From NCBI GenBank assembly GCA_028291345.1, contig JAQGIF010000173.1:1-32506 (forward strand): a stretch of 32,506 bases of DNA, read 5' to 3'. Made by a program: the position numbers and the translations under genes. The stretch comes from Rhodospirillales bacterium (lineage in GTDB: Bacteria > Pseudomonadota > Alphaproteobacteria > BOG-932 > Roseiterribacteraceae). Shown here in pieces: positions 6,782 through 14,883 of this stretch; position 1 is the first letter of the stretch, and every line of letters begins with the position of its first letter. The notes under the pieces were generated by a model that saw nothing but the letters and a program-made list of their open reading frames with translations, had not been told where the DNA came from and made no database searches.

Positions 6782-7569
6782 GGCCCTGTCACATAAGCGG
6801 CAGAATTTGATAATGGCGAGATGCAGTCGATTTCGTATGCCGGTCACCGCTTCCCCCTTGACCTGATCCGCCACGCTGTCTGGCTTTATCTTTGCTCCAC
6901 GTTGAGTTGTTGGGATGTCGAGGATCTGCTCGCAGAGCGCGGCATCGACGTGAGCTATGAGACGGTCCGTCGTTGGGTTCTGAAGTTCGGTCCCACGATT
7001 TGCCGCCATCTGCGGGAGCAGCGGCCGAGGCCGACGGCTCAGCGGCATCTCGACGAAATGGTTGTGTCGATCGCCGGACGGCGGATGTATCTCTGGCGGG
7101 CGGTCGACAGCGAAGGGGAAGTTCTGGACCTGCTTGTTCAAACCAGGCGCGACCGGGCGGCAACCTTGAAGCTGTTGCGCAAACTGCTAAAGCGTCGAGG
7201 CTGCGCGCCACGCATCGTGGTGACCGACCTGCTGAAATCCTATGGCGCCGCTCTGCGTGAGCTTGGCTTTGCCGGCCGACATGAACAGGGACTTCGCGCC
7301 AACAATCGCGCTGAAAATTCCCATCGTCCGCCGCGAAGGCGCGAGCACAAGATGCAACGCTTCAAGTCGGCCGGATCCGCTCAGCGCTTTCTTGCTGCCC
7401 ATGCCATCGGCTATAATGTCTTCAATGTTGAACGCCACCTGGTCGCGAGTCCGACCCTCAAACGATTCCGTGGCGCTGCTCACCGAGCTTGGGAGACGCC
7501 CGCCGCCGCCGCATAATTGAAACGCGCCCCCGATCTTCCACGACCAACGCTGAACAACGTGACAATGCC
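6782..7569 (+). mobile_element. IS6-family insertion sequence, complete, no target duplication
   Basis: A 788-bp element with terminal inverted repeats GGCCCTGTCACA (6782) and GGCATTGTCACG (read inward on the minus strand from 7569), which agree at 9 of 12 positions and resemble other IS6 ends (GGCACTGTCGC). It carries one transposase gene. The 8 bases outside each end (CCAGCGCC on the left, GCACCAAT on the right) do not match, so no target-site duplication is present. IS6 elements move by replicative cointegration and make adjacent deletions, so the mismatch suggests that DNA next to one end was lost or rearranged. Confidence 0.8.
6821..7516 (+). CDS. IS6-family DDE transposase
   Basis: A 231-residue transposase with the usual IS6 length (about 230-240). 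It has an N-terminal helix-turn-helix region (ISYETVRRW-like DVSYETVRRWVLKFG, about residues 43-57) and an RNase H-fold catalytic core. The DDE residues are D78 (HLDEMV), D136 (VTDLLKSYG) and E165 (NRAENSH). The C-terminal QRFKSAGSAQRFL motif is a family hallmark. It appears intact and probably active. A second element with a related but different N-terminus (MMQPISYARHQFPP) is present only as a fragment at 16310-16426. The ATG lies 39 bases inside the left inverted repeat. Confidence 0.92.
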   Translation: MQSISYAGHRFPLDLIRHAVWLYLCSTLSCWDVEDLLAERGIDVSYETVRRWVLKFGPTICRHLREQRPRPTAQRHLDEMVVSIAGRRMYLWRAVDSEGEVLDLLVQTRRDRAATLKLLRKLLKRRGCAPRIVVTDLLKSYGAALRELGFAGRHEQGLRANNRAENSHRPPRRREHKMQRFKSAGSAQRFLAAHAIGYNVFNVERHLVASPTLKRFRGAAHRAWETPAAAA

Positions 7570-9408: not shown

Positions 9409-9780
9409 TTGGGCGACGAGCAACTGGCCCTAGTGGACAAACCTACACTCGCGAACGAGCGCGCAGTTCAAAATTGGTTTGAAGGGAAGAAGGGGCGCAA
9501 CGGCGAATACCTCGTGAAGCTGATCAGGCATTCCGACGTTGTGCTTGAAGCTGTTCTCGCCTTAGAACCTCAGAGCGATCGCGCTTTGGCTGTCAGCCTC
9601 GATGGCCTCAGACTTCACCTGATTGAGGCGGTCGCAGCCATTGATCAGTTGCAGCCACCGGATCATAGCGATCTTGCACTGGCCATACGCGGTCCAGCCC
9701 TTGCGCCTACTGCTGAGTTAAAATCCCTGTTGGATCGAATTTCGTCCCTGTTCGGCCGAATTAATTCCCTGTTAACCTGA
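9409..9780 (+). CDS. Helix-turn-helix-like protein, possibly 5'-truncated
   Basis: The region RQALGDEQLALVDKP ... RAVQNWFEGKKGRNGEYLV fits the small HTH proteins common in alphaproteobacterial mobile DNA, where an NWFEGK-type turn lies in the recognition helix. The frame is open from 9319 and reads sensibly before the first usable start (TTG at 9409, no ribosome site), so the original start was probably lost. The C-terminus, SLLDRIS-SLFGRIN-SLLT, is encoded by a 21-bp tandem DNA repeat. Such repeats, together with a serine recombinase, recur in rhizobial and sphingomonad genomes (recalled, not checked). It is probably a DNA-binding relic of a mobile element. Confidence 0.45.
   Translation: MGDEQLALVDKPTLANERAVQNWFEGKKGRNGEYLVKLIRHSDVVLEAVLALEPQSDRALAVSLDGLRLHLIEAVAAIDQLQPPDHSDLALAIRGPALAPTAELKSLLDRISSLFGRINSLLT
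9721..9773 (+). repeat. 21-bp tandem repeat (TCCCTGTT units)
   Basis: TCCCTGTT occurs at 9724-9731, 9745-9752 and 9766-9773, exactly 21 bases apart. The linkers are also similar (GGATCGAATT and CGGCCGAATT). The period equals seven codons and gives the heptad SLxxRIx at the C-terminus of the overlapping gene. A further copy at 9863-9870 and inverted versions at 9783 and 9885 lie outside the gene, so the unit is not simply a protein-coding repeat. Confidence 0.75.
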
Positions 9781-9853
9781 GTAGGGAATTGCGGTGCAAG
9801 CGATTGAGAACGCGTTACTTTCTGCGCCTCCGAGTGCACGCTTTGCCCGGAAT

Positions 9854-9887
9854 CTGCTAAATTCCCTGTTATTTTCTCTTTTAGCAG
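9854..9887. repeat. Perfect hairpin CTGCTAAA/TTTAGCAG
   Basis: An 8-base perfect stem (9854-9861 with 9880-9887) encloses an 18-base loop that itself holds a TCCCTGTT unit. A competing pairing of TCCCTG with CAGGGA is also possible. The rest of 9781-10137 has no convincing gene. It is probably the non-coding end of the element that supplied the HTH gene and the recombinase fragment. Confidence 0.55.
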
Positions 9888-10137
9888 GGATTTTCGACCG
9901 GAGAGCGGTTCGCAGTGGACTGCGTGCACCGCCAGCCAGTCACGCGTCAGAGAGAGCTTCCAGCAATCTCGCCGAAATGCCCCGGTTTCCGGCCTTTCCC
10001 GTGTCAGAACCGCACCAGAGAAACTGGAAATTGAGCCATCATTGACAGCCTCGACCCATTTCTCTCTGCGGCCGATTTCCGCGGCGCGGTTCTCTAATTG
10101 ATGTAGTGTGAATGATCGGCCGACTAGCCGGTGGCCG

Positions 10138-10914
10138 TTAGACGAATCCGAGATGCGCCTTTTGCGCCGACCGCTCGATCGGCATAGCCGCAGGGTAAGT
10201 CAGGATGTCGGCGGTCAGTTCGATCGGCTGACGTCCGGTGGCGATCGCTGCGACGATGTCGGGCGAGAGCAGTGCGAGCCGCATCAGCCGGCTGACATAA
10301 CGGGGTTTGAGACCATCGCGCTGCGCAAGCTCATCGAGCGATGATACCCGCCCGGAGACCAGTTCATCGAACCAGCGGTTACCCCGCGCCACCGCTTTGA
10401 GCAGGACCGGATCAACCGCATGGTTGGTGCCATCCGATCCATCGATCACCAGCCGCATCTCTTCGCCGCGGCGTTTCATCTGGATCGGGTGGTGGCGCGT
10501 GACCGATAGTGGGTTGCTATCCAGCGGCAATCCCGGTGCAAGCCTTATGGTCAAAATGATCCCATCCGGTTGAAGGGTGATCCGATCGACCATCTGCTTT
10601 GGGAATTCGATTTCATCATCGAGGCTGATGCTCAGCCGTTTTGCCTGGTCAAGAATTCCCGGAAGCTGGGTGCTGCCGATACCGACCTCCTGGGCAGCAT
10701 GAACGATCGCCGTTTGATCCTGCAGGGTCAGGTTGATGAGCCGACGGACGGTGCGCTCCAGTTCGGCAGCCGGGATCCGCCAGCCCGATCCCTCCGGCCG
10801 CTCCTCACCGGTCAGCAGGGCGGCTGACACATAGTAGCGGTACCGCCGGCCCTGCTTGGTGGCATGATGTGGAACGAGCCGCTCGCCTTGATCATCGACC
10901 AGGGCACTGCACAC
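10138..10914 (-). pseudogene. C-terminal half of a large serine recombinase
   Basis: The frame reads ALVDDQGERLVPHHATKQGR, then RYRYYVS, the region around the zinc ribbon of large serine recombinases. It continues with the helical coiled-coil part (RTVRRLINLTLQDQ) and the typical C-terminal block VTRHHPIQMKRRGEEMRLVI and DGLKPRYVSRLMRLALLSPD. The N-terminal resolvase domain with the catalytic serine is absent: beyond 10914 the sequence no longer fits. The full protein would be about 500-600 residues or more. It should be inactive. A 57-base piece of the same gene type is repeated at 23660-23716. The frame ends 358 bases from the HTH gene, and the two probably came from one element. Confidence 0.8.
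10444..10500 (-). repeat. Dispersed 57-bp repeat, copy 1 (inside recombinase fragment)
   Basis: This stretch matches 23660-23716 at 55 of 57 bases in the same orientation, with sequence diverging at both edges. It encodes VTRHHPIQMKRRGEEMRLVI of the serine recombinase C-terminus. The two copies bracket about 13.2 kb that includes the nuclease pair and the whole catabolic cluster. Confidence 0.85.
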
Positions 10915-11093
10915 CCGAACATCAGAGAGAGGTTAGCGTTGGACTGCCAGCAGTGTCCGGGCCATGAGCGGCAATGGTGTTCACGCACCGACCCCATATT
11001 GGCGGTTATGAGAAATCGGCAAGCAACGTTCGCGGTGATCAAGGCCGATTTGCACTCGAATCGATGGATCACGATATTTCGCCGCCCACAATC

Positions 11094-12194
11094 TTAGTGA
11101 AGCGGCAACGTGCCAACAAATTGCGCGTCGCGCGGAAGCGCCAGCGCGTAATTCGCTCGCTCTTTGACAGACTCGTGGATCCAGGCTCCGCTGGGGATCG
11201 TCCGGCGCCGAAAAAGATTCATGCGCCAACCCGTCTTCTTGGTTACGGCGTTGTAGTGTTTCTTTGGGACAAACTCGCCCAGCCACCAGCCGATCGTCAG
11301 AGACTCATGCATGATCGCATTTGCGTCCGGCGAAACCATCGACGGGGTTCCGCCGAGGATAAGATCCGTGCGAACCTTATCCAGCAGAAGCCCGTGGGCA
11401 TTGGCTTCCGCGAGCATCCATCTGAGCGCGCCTTTGGCAAGGCCGCTCTCCACCTCGGGATAGCCACCGCCGACGTCGCAGTGGACACCAGGAAACCACA
11501 CCTGCTTCAAGTCTATCGGCCCACCTGCCTCATGCGTTTGAGATGCAAGCGTCGGATGCCAAAGGTTTTGGCGGAAGAATGCGCGGCGTTCGTCAATCGC
11601 TACCGCGTGCCGACCAACAGCAATGCCAGGATTGCTCGCCGTATAGGGAAGCTTGAGAGGATTTGCTATCCAACCCACCGAACTCACCGTGTCCCAAACG
11701 CCCACAAAATGAATTGGGCAAGGCTGGGGAGAAAATGTGAGCGCAAACTCCTCTGCTAACGCAAAGACGTCATGTGGCCGGTCCTTCTGAATCGCCATCA
11801 GCATCCGGATGGCATACGGGACGAGCGGCTCGTTGCCTCGTGGAATAAGACCATACATGTGAGCGAGGGCAGCCAGAGCGCGGACCGTATAGGCTCCGCG
11901 GCTAAATCCGAAGAGAAACACTCGGTCTCCGGGTTCATAGGTATTCATCAAAAAGACGTAAGCGTCCCGGATATCGGTTTCGAGGCCATACCCGATTGCA
12001 AGGCCAAGCAGCTTGGTGACTTTTCGAGAAATGCTTGTGAGCGCTCCGACGGCTTCCATGGTCCCCACACCCGGGTGGTAGTAGGTGACCTGACCAGCAT
12101 TCTGCTGGATCGCGGCATAAAGTTTAACGACGTTCGTCCGATCCTTTTTGAACTCGTTCGCCGTTCCGTCACAGCAAAGGACGATATTTTTCAT
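11094..12194 (-). CDS. DUF2235 (Tle1-like) alpha/beta hydrolase
   Basis: A 366-residue protein with the full DUF2235 signature. It opens IVLCCDGTANEF, has the nucleophile elbow GFSRGA with S98, the GVWDTV motif with D168, and GVHCDVGGGY with H238. These three would form the Ser-Asp-His triad by analogy with Tle1 phospholipases. No signal peptide or membrane segment is seen, so it is cytoplasmic unless exported by another route. At 366 residues it is shorter than T6SS-linked Tle1 proteins and is like stand-alone members. GAAGG sits before the ATG. It follows the secreted nuclease gene by 40 bases on the same strand, so both are probably co-transcribed. A lipase or esterase role is inferred; no secretion genes are in view. 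Confidence 0.88.
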   Translation of the reverse strand: MKNIVLCCDGTANEFKKDRTNVVKLYAAIQQNAGQVTYYHPGVGTMEAVGALTSISRKVTKLLGLAIGYGLETDIRDAYVFLMNTYEPGDRVFLFGFSRGAYTVRALAALAHMYGLIPRGNEPLVPYAIRMLMAIQKDRPHDVFALAEEFALTFSPQPCPIHFVGVWDTVSSVGWIANPLKLPYTASNPGIAVGRHAVAIDERRAFFRQNLWHPTLASQTHEAGGPIDLKQVWFPGVHCDVGGGYPEVESGLAKGALRWMLAEANAHGLLLDKVRTDLILGGTPSMVSPDANAIMHESLTIGWWLGEFVPKKHYNAVTKKTGWRMNLFRRRTIPSGAWIHESVKERANYALALPRDAQFVGTLPLH

Positions 12195-12234
12195 GGCTTC
12201 CTTCGAGTCCGACGACCCAACTGTTGTCGAGCGT

Positions 12235-13062
12235 CTAGTTCGCAGCGGTCACTGGGTGGCACTTGCGCGTTTTCATCTTCGCGAACCCAGCCAGGTCCGC
12301 CGGCCAAATGACACCCAGCTGTACGCGATTGACCCCTGCCGGTAGCGGGAGCGAAAACCCGACCGCCTTCTCGATGTCATTGATACTTACAAGATAGGGC
12401 GTTAAGTCCCCCTTTGGCGTGGGCTCATTCTTCATGACGAATGCAAGGGTGTCATTCGTGTCGGGATCTACGATCACCTTCCAGTAGGCAACCGGCACCG
12501 CAACGTTATCGTCGCCTATTGTCTGCGGCGCGCCATCCCAGATCGGACCATCCATTACAATCAAAGCCGCGTGGGTCAGGGTCCATGCGCGCGTCACCGC
12601 TTCGAGTTGTTCCCACTCCCACTGGTTTAGGTGCGACGCCTGAGGGCTCATATTCGAGAGATAGAAACTTTCCCTCTCGACGTCTGCGTCCCATTCAAAA
12701 TCCGAGTTGGGAGCAAAATGGCCACGATCAAAACCCGGGTGGTTTTTATAATCCGCCAACTCGGCACGATGTCCAGGCGCCAAATCGGGATCCGGCGCAA
12801 ATGAATTCTTCCGCGGAAAACAACCTAGGGAGTGATCCCGCGTCAGCTGCCATGACACGAAGTCTGGAACGAGCTTTCTTGGATCATGAAGTGCGATGTA
12901 AGCGGTCCGGCATAGTGGCGTGAGGGCCGGCTCGCCATTTTCCCAAGTCGGTGCGCCCCACGGCGCTTGCGATGCGCAGGCCGCCGGAATCTCTACAGCA
13001 CTCGCCAGACCACTCAGAAGTCCGCCTATACAAAATGCCAGCCCGCATAAAATATTGCGCAC
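12235..13062 (-). CDS. Secreted DNA/RNA non-specific endonuclease (EndoG/NucA type)
   Basis: A 275-residue protein with a Sec signal peptide (MRNILCGLAFCIGGLLSGLA, then SA-VE). The beta-beta-alpha metal nuclease core has DRGH at 112-115 with catalytic H115. The magnesium ligand N146 lies in SHLNQWEW, a spacing of 31 that agrees with the Serratia nuclease pair H89/N119. It should degrade DNA and RNA in the periplasm or outside the cell. The start is GTG 13062 with GAGGG very close upstream; an in-frame stop lies just before. A strong hairpin (13084-13106) sits in the leader. It is the first gene of a two-gene unit with the DUF2235 hydrolase. No dedicated inhibitor gene is seen. Confidence 0.9.
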   Translation of the reverse strand: MRNILCGLAFCIGGLLSGLASAVEIPAACASQAPWGAPTWENGEPALTPLCRTAYIALHDPRKLVPDFVSWQLTRDHSLGCFPRKNSFAPDPDLAPGHRAELADYKNHPGFDRGHFAPNSDFEWDADVERESFYLSNMSPQASHLNQWEWEQLEAVTRAWTLTHAALIVMDGPIWDGAPQTIGDDNVAVPVAYWKVIVDPDTNDTLAFVMKNEPTPKGDLTPYLVSINDIEKAVGFSLPLPAGVNRVQLGVIWPADLAGFAKMKTRKCHPVTAAN

Positions 13063-14184: not shown

Positions 14185-14883
14185 TTTATCTATCGCCCCG
14201 AACGTCAAAGCGTGCTGGTGCTGCACAAGACCCGCGAGTTGTTAGTGCGTCAGCGCACGATGCTGATTAATGCCATCCGCGGACACCGCGCCGAGTTCGG
14301 GATCATCGCCCCGCAAGGCGCTCGTCGAACGGGCGAACTCATCGAGCAAGTGCGCAAGGCTGACAGATCAGTGCTTCCAGAACTAGCCCGCTCCACGCTG
14401 TCATTGCTCACTCAGCAGCTCGCGGCCCTGGCTACACAGATTCGTACGCTCGAAAGGCACTTGCTTGCCTGGTATCACCAGGACAAGGCAAGCCAGCGGC
14501 CAGCGACAATCCCGGGCGTTGGGATTATCACGGCCACAGCTTTGTCGGCCGCCGTCACCGATCCCGCTGCCTTCCGCTCCGGTCGGGAGTTCGCCGCCTT
14601 TCTAGGGCTAGTCCCACGGCAAAACTCTTCCGGCGGCAAAGAACGGCTGGGTCGCATCTCGAAGATGGGCGACGGTTATCTCCGCAAGCTTCTGGTCGTC
14701 GGCGCAACCTCGGTGATCCGCAGGGCTCGCACCGGCACCGTCGGTGCTGCGCCTTGGATCCGCGCGCTTCTTGAGCGCCGACCCGCCCGCGTCGTGACCG
14801 TCGCTATGGCGAACAAGACGGCCCGAATCGTCTGGGCCGTGCTGGCGAGCGGCGACGTCTATCGCCCGCCGGTGACCGCCTAA
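14185..14883 (+). pseudogene. IS110/IS1111-family transposase, 5'-truncated
   Basis: The frame begins FIYRPERQSVLVLHKTREL and continues LLVRQRTMLINAIRGHRAEF. This is the linker and coiled-coil region that normally lies about 100 residues into IS110-family transposases. The C-terminal Tnp_IS110 domain is complete: IPGVGIITATAL, then FLGLVPRQNSSGGKERLGRI and KMGDGYLRKLLVVGA, which contain the conserved serine-type catalytic region. The N-terminal RuvC-like DEDD domain is missing, so the protein should be inactive. The stop is followed by about 260 bases of non-coding DNA of the kind expected at the 3' end of an IS1111-type element. Confidence 0.8.

Follow-up and report, generated by a model that had tools for sequence, protein, structure and literature searches.

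The stretch of DNA analysed here, 32,506 nucleotides of a contig from a Rhodospirillales bacterium (the window), carries a small gene, an array of short repeats and, on the opposite strand, the remnant of a large serine recombinase (LSR). Copies of TCCCTGTT recur in the array at exact 21-bp steps, run beyond the open reading frame in which they begin and close with an inverted copy. The three copies at exact 21-base spacing that had been described in an initial annotation of this DNA are present as ATCCCTGTT at 9723–9731, GTCCCTGTT at 9744–9752 and TTCCCTGTT at 9765–9773, all on the forward strand and the first two each one base off TTCCCTGTT. These iterons lie 139, 118 and 97 bp, respectively, upstream of another forward copy of TTCCCTGTT at 9862–9870, which was recovered by motif search and by the profile described below. 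This core-proximal copy is followed by a second and decayed one, TTCTCTTTT at 9874–9882 (+), seen in alignment A1, and by the inverted copy, AGCAGGGAT at 9883–9891 (−), seen in repeat searches and the same alignment. The further direct and inverted copies reported earlier could thus be located, as could a perfect 8-base hairpin between AATTCCCT at 9763–9770 and AGGGAATT at 9783–9790; the second arm of this hairpin is an inverted half copy (−) after the third iteron and is kept in most rows of alignment A1. There are also 10-base arms, AAAATCCCTG and CAGGGATTTT, at 9720–9729 and 9885–9894. The array was picked up by TRF with a score of 58. Taken alone, the 9-mer shows no clear enrichment across the entire window, with 9 occurrences at one mismatch versus 4.3 expected and 9 or more in 5 of 100 shuffles. 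The significance of the repeats therefore rests on their arrangement, as measured by the profile match.

The first three copies are crossed by an open frame. The remnant of a gene for a small helical protein occupies 9409–9666 (+), and comparison with relatives places its ancestral end after the residues QPPDH. The frame continues as a read-through extension at 9667–9780 (+) that passes through the three copies and, since 21 bp equal seven codons, gives the appearance of a heptad tail. In the paralogs of the same genome (contigs C252 and C218), a TAG stands immediately after QPPDH in the sequence CATTAG. The window lacks one T at this point, so its frame reads on into the array. Seven of eight other family members terminate within about 17 residues of the QPPDH point, and the C-terminus of the eighth (L008) is longer. 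The heptad tail proposed in the initial annotation is therefore an artefact of a lost stop and is not ancestral. The designation of the gene as HTH was not confirmed either, as the protein has no Pfam match above the cut-off and its helical model is of low confidence (fold P0001, mean pLDDT 61). All three copies of this gene family in the window genome look decayed. At seven loci of the family in six other genomes, no array was found within up to about 1.5 kb on either side, and the gene's supposed ownership of the array was abandoned. Approached from the array, a relative of the small gene was found beside it at two loci, L111 and L187, in the latter with its stop 98 bp from the array, and another sits within an interval bounded by array and LSR in genome G040. 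The small gene can therefore be cargo of an element. The small protein of the window had no relative in a search of assembled genome contigs and no match in phage records, and partial relatives of it occur in 22 plasmid records.

On the other side of the array lies a feature that the initial annotation did not contain. The sequence that follows the inverted copy is a conserved and predicted recombinase-type half-site. In the window this P half-site reads GGAGAG-C-GGTTCGC-AGTG-GACTGC at 9900–9923 (+), as indicated by the profile, alignment A1 and a fuzzy half-site test. It is followed at 9927–9934 (+) by a putative attachment core of the tRNA 3'-end type, CACCGCCA, which is assigned from the profile, from alignment A1 and by analogy with seven paired elements. 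A spacer at 9935–10137, with the same layout in 20 other rows, leads to the 3' end of the recombinase. The serine recombinase fragment had been correctly noted as a neighbour of the array. It is the C-terminal part of an LSR at 10138–10914 (−) and matches residues 338–612 of a 614-residue relative, which means that the catalytic domain is absent. The search for tRNA genes in the window found none. Since only a C-terminal LSR part is left, one of the close copies is decayed and no tRNA was detected, the window copy is most likely a relic in which element ends are joined, and no longer a functional site.

Directly past the truncated recombinase, at 10921–10951 (+), we observed a possible remnant of a second half-site, GAGAGAGGTTAGCGTTGGACTGC. 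The match is marginal (nhmmer 9.1 bits, E 0.016) and may point to an additional recombination or deletion event. Genes for a Tle1-type phospholipase, of the T6SS effector kind, and for a DNA/RNA non-specific endonuclease follow the recombinase remnant at 11094–13062 and are possibly island cargo. The region is flanked by transposase genes of the IS240 type (DDE_Tnp_IS240) at 6821–7516 and of the IS110 type at 14212–14883.

Recurrence of the module in other genomes

We compared the window with a profile made from 72 loci outside the window genome. The profile matched positions 9720–9938 with 135.9 bits (E = 2.9e-41) over 219 ungapped bases, while its best match in 50 block-shuffled windows reached 8.2 bits. 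In the window genome it also matched contigs C218, C252, C229 and part of C27. The 72 input loci, out of 198, consisted of 50 from named genomes, 13 from viral contigs and 9 others; only arrays with n ≥ 4 whose tail, as defined by a regular expression, measured 180–300 bp were admitted. The GACTG...CCA ends in alignment A1 were thus selected for, and the iterons and the close pair were partly so by the search patterns. Alignment A1 holds 39 of 49 non-redundant loci plus the window, and alignment A2 holds 34. The conserved module is about 220 bp long, with two to four iterons at 21–22 bp, a step of about 97 bp, two copies about 12 bp apart and an inverted copy. It continues as GAGAC-N-GGTTCGC-N4-GACTGC and then a core of the CCRCCA or CAGCCA type.

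The spacing of the upstream copies was not imposed by the search. Further upstream copies occur in 96 of 107 unique loci with peaks at 96–99, 116–120 and 138–142 bp, versus 2 copies in 102 loci for a control stretch. Among the 107 other loci, the window steps of 97 and 118 bp are the commonest of their peaks and 139 bp is one of the three common values within its own. The profile and these spacing peaks at other loci indicate conservation of the DNA unit irrespective of coding, in agreement with the earlier suggestion that the unit itself seems selected or amplified.

Genome-wide repeat searches, which had been suggested as a check, showed that arrays at 21–22 bp recur, many of them beside serine recombinases. 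Two exact copies within 30 bp were found in 35 of 385 genomes of the class, which was taken as Alphaproteobacteria on the basis of alpha_tmRNA, versus 5 of 385 for a reversed control pattern. The pattern of a close pair plus inverted copy returned at least 116 stretches in named genomes. Nearly all of the named-genome matches listed are from alphaproteobacteria; three are from MAGs of Deltaproteobacteria, Rudaea and Bacteroidetes and may be misbinned. A shorter core-proximal model matched 18 of 200 genomes of the phylum, namely the window genome, 15 others of its class and 2 of another class. The close-pair and iteron patterns also yielded 24 viral contigs with the array. One module searched against 50,697 phage records gave no match, and plasmid records gave one weak and partial module match.

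The half-site was examined with the fuzzy test at all unique arrays. It follows the array in 98 of 177, compared with 3 of 167 at the mirror position and 1 of 141 farther downstream; the 79 that fail the test include arrays of the second layout (see below), contig ends and divergent tails. The half-site to the left of the core is conserved, and the right flank is only weakly dyadic with it, with a best mean of 6.8 of 24 matches. GGTTCG is the tRNA T-loop motif, and it is visible in the tRNA ends compared here. From the start of GGTTCG to the end of CCA, the distance is 28 bp in 66 of the 98 tails, 25 bp in 22, 27 bp in 9 and 32 bp in 1, and the tRNA-Val counterpart has 25 bp. We infer that this spacing would be compatible with an LSR recognising attP as well as the T arm of the tRNA. 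At one locus (L242), the spacer from core to LSR contains the half-site motif GAGACCGGTTCGCA two further times.

Two RNA interpretations were tried and rejected. A structured RNA is not indicated, as none of 8 pairs shows a compensatory change. Rfam found no family at gathering score in the window and one weak match at a lax threshold, and a lax scan of 13 of the 30 loci L041–L070 returned one tRNA and two matches below gathering scores. The tail is also not a fragment of tmRNA (ssrA), since it lies outside ssrA in two loci by BLAST and in 28 listed loci by motif; alpha_tmRNA was present in 28 of 29 genomes.

Recombinase, tRNA ends and element genes

The relatives of the window recombinase are LSRs, and the two examined carry the Resolvase and Recombinase Pfam domains (PF00239/PF07508). 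Arrays and LSRs occur in two layouts. In the first one, the array is followed by half-site and core, spacer and an LSR on the opposite strand. The LSR match lies 237–581 bp past the array in 21 rows, which include the window (274 bp) and list one place twice. In the second layout, the LSR precedes the array, which is followed by a spacer of mostly about 175 bp and, in many cases, a tRNA on the opposite strand. With duplicates counted, 33 rows of this kind place the LSR to the left; in 24 of them, no more than 60 bp separate the end of the LSR match from the array, too little to fit a further gene. Members of the main LSR cluster are within 4 kb at only 45 of 137 genome loci. In these 21 and 33 rows and at 12 tRNA junctions, the recombinase that adjoins the core is an LSR. 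Read from these arrangements, the array points at the core from either side. Several loci of the second layout, L126, L132, L165 and L217 among them, have a further inverted copy of the AACAGGGAA type about 40 bp before the tRNA end.

In 22 of 29 tRNA rows near arrays, with two places doubled, the tRNA is on the opposite strand with its 3' end 94–261 bp past the array, and 14 of these 22 ends fall at 174–178 bp. A protein search found the LSR in 16 of 23 genomes, most of which had been chosen for holding arrays. At 12 of 30 LSR loci found in this manner, a tRNA 3' end (Ser, Gln, Val, Met or Tyr) lies 168–420 bp after the LSR stop. The core equals the 3' end of the occupied tRNA in all seven elements whose two ends could be paired, with 6–12 bp common to both junctions. 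The Val core in G199 and the Tyr core in G156 are both CCACCA. The Gln core is CAGCCA in G156, G253, G069 and G040, with 12 bp in common in the last two, and the Ser core in G208 is CTCCGCCA. The closed genome G199 has elements of 48.7 and 10.4 kb in tandem at a tRNA-Val, with CCACCA at all three junctions, and G069 has two arrays in line with CAGCCAACCACC in both; as judged from such junctions, a single tRNA can host elements in tandem. At locus L326 of G069 (C1:3872600–3873500), TTCGCTGTT replaces TTCCCTGTT in all three iterons, which are 21–22 bp apart, and the core still matches the tRNA. The repeat unit seems to have changed in concert there.

Where array and LSR were found on one contig, 15 pairs have the expected polarity (three each in G199 and G069, two each in G156 and G208, and one each in G253, G040, G547, G506 and, with a weak array match, G089) and one in G284 does not. 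The paired spans range from 10 to 87 kb. In G288, two arrays directly adjoin the LSR. Of 37 array matches in 15 genomes, 19 had no LSR partner among the matches of the LSR search. Within 120 kb, a second core or array was not found in G060 and a second array was not found in G185. Taken as sequence comparisons, these data establish the location and polarity of the array, the identity of the core and the adjacency of the LSR. One end of an element, as delimited by the alignments, consists of iterons, two close copies, inverted copy, predicted half-site and a CCRCCA or CAGCCA core. The other end, as read at the paired junctions, consists of the tRNA 3' end with the core, a spacer of about 200 bp and the 3' end of the LSR.

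The 24 viral contigs with the array served to survey the accompanying genes. An LSR was found in 18 of them, a ParB-domain methyltransferase in 20, DUF5681 in 16, DUF2924 in 16, TerL in 14 and DUF3489 in 12, with query proteins drawn from these same contigs. The methyltransferase combines ParB_N with an N6/N4 methyltransferase, and the TerL assignment was confirmed by Pfam. The DUF3489 gene is located upstream of DUF2924 and the LSR. Its product is modeled as a winged helix whose core is predicted confidently (pLDDT ≥ 90 at 52 of 96 residues). The model is similar to many DNA-binding proteins of the winged-helix class (best Foldseek E 3.5e-3); the best Z score was 9.4 over 71 residues, to DriD. 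The modeled fold makes the DUF3489 protein a candidate for binding the array. As for a recombination directionality factor, DUF3489 and DUF2924 are candidates only. The 48.7-kb element of G199 (L287–L288, 3677620–3726400) contains MzaB, MzaC, Vsr and a cytosine methylase by PADLOC, which is cargo of an anti-phage type, and two of its genes are SbcC/SbcD-like by eye.

Interpretation and rival explanations

We propose that the array belongs to the attachment region of LSR integrative elements that target tRNA 3' ends, mainly in Alphaproteobacteria, and that it has a role in controlling recombination. We give this proposal, control role included, a probability of roughly 0.6. Weighing against it are the arrays that fail the half-site test, the loci and array matches without an LSR partner, the G284 pair of unexpected polarity and the weak symmetry around the core. 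The LSR would recombine within the CCA core of the tRNA such that the tRNA stays whole. The array would be bound by a DNA-binding protein encoded by the element, for which the winged-helix DUF3489 protein is the best candidate, and the copies are about two helix turns (21–22 bp) or one (11–12 bp) apart. The bound array may form a complex beside the core that controls integration versus excision. The decayed junction in the window would then comprise the end of one element and, after it, the core with the spacer and recombinase remnant of a second element or of the same one circularised. A more specific version holds that the array is a multi-site, helically phased accessory array, bound by a DUF3489 protein that decides between integration and excision at tRNAs; it would do for a serine recombinase what the arm sites do in lambda attP. 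We offer this version tentatively, as somewhat more apt to be wrong than right.

The same features were weighed against other functions. Repeated sites together with a dyad resemble cosB and cosN of lambda, and TerL and DUF5681 are found in 14 and 16, respectively, of the 24 viral contigs. Several elements carry a terminase gene. The array could accordingly be a packaging site of the cos or pac kind, with terminase binding the iterons during phage-satellite packaging and its place beside the att site being incidental. We consider this unlikely, because the position of the array is fixed relative to the core whereas terminase genes occur on either side and in either direction, the 10.4-kb element of G199 has the array without a TerL match, and the module searched against the phage records found no counterpart. 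Replication origins typically have iterons that, at 21–22 bp, share one face of the helix, and the ParB_N methyltransferase gene is a frequent neighbour of the array, as in 20 of the 24 viral contigs. An origin of replication or transfer of the excised circle, akin to plasmid iterons, or a partition site for the methyltransferase is nevertheless less probable still, since the methyltransferase cluster is within 4 kb at only 26 of 137 genome loci, and pointing at an attachment core from either side is not required of an origin. No Rep-like cluster stood out among the gene clusters surveyed around the arrays.

It is improbable that the array is an operator for the neighboring small HTH-like gene or for the methyltransferase. 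The small gene runs into the array in the window and ends close to it at L187, but its family is without a nearby array at the seven loci in other genomes, and in the LSR+ layout the array stands after the LSR stop with only spacer and tRNA beyond. There is next to no chance that it is a codon-level protein repeat or a product of coincidence. The 21-bp period of seven codons and the open frame over three copies would suit such a repeat, yet the profile extends across coding and non-coding parts at its E value of 2.9e-41 and the paralogs stop before the array, which rules out a repeat at the codon level alone.

Relation to known systems

The phages phiC31, Bxb1 and A118 exemplify integrative elements and prophages of the LSR type. 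The elements described here resemble these in the Resolvase and Recombinase domains, in a recombinase gene adjoining the att site and in a short core. They differ from known LSR elements by having the 3' ends of several tRNA species as targets and a multi-copy array beside the core. LSRs are valued for needing only short attP and attB sites. To our knowledge, known LSRs work without such arrays, and this counts against the control role. The array recalls the arm-type accessory sites present in lambda attP. Targeting of tRNA 3' ends is usually a habit of tyrosine integrases, and a serine integrase at a tRNA has precedent in phiRv2 of M. tuberculosis. Phage satellites such as PICI and tycheposons are similar in having an integrase, a terminase in some elements without an evident virion set, and, in one element here, anti-phage cargo. 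Our elements are unlike them in the serine recombinase, the ParB-methyltransferase and the DUF3489 and DUF2924 genes.

Several published systems share individual traits. In a report on phage WO of Wolbachia, a DUF2924 gene is adjacent to the LSR gene (PMC11376236), as in our elements. According to a study on Sinorhizobium meliloti, tRNA-integrated islands insert at tRNA 3' ends, leave the tRNA intact, accrete in tandem and carry cargo, and their enzymes are tyrosine integrases with one doubtful exception (PMC11476347); the enzyme beside the core is a serine recombinase in our case. The tRNA sites described for M. abscessus likewise belong to tyrosine integrases, and a reported satellite with a serine integrase is not at a tRNA (PMC10654092). 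We found no literature on the array or the element family, and none that pairs DUF3489 or DUF5681 with our other search terms, in searches of a largely open-access library in which part of the motif matches was screened, by title. The genes of the elements belong individually to public families, and the family of LSR elements with the array is apparently undescribed.

The profile and the adjacent LSRs bear out the core of the initial guess: the array is part of a mobile element, apparently undescribed, that has a serine recombinase. That annotation as a whole was right about such an element and about a repeat unit independent of coding; the HTH gene as owner was not supported, and the heptad tail was mistaken. 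Should the array be a packaging site instead, a large class of phage satellites would be recognisable by it. If the proposed role is true, an LSR family that is aimed at tRNAs and carries a conserved array would represent a different way of controlling LSRs. The array is in addition a sequence handle for the ends of genomic islands in alphaproteobacteria, including at least one with anti-phage genes.
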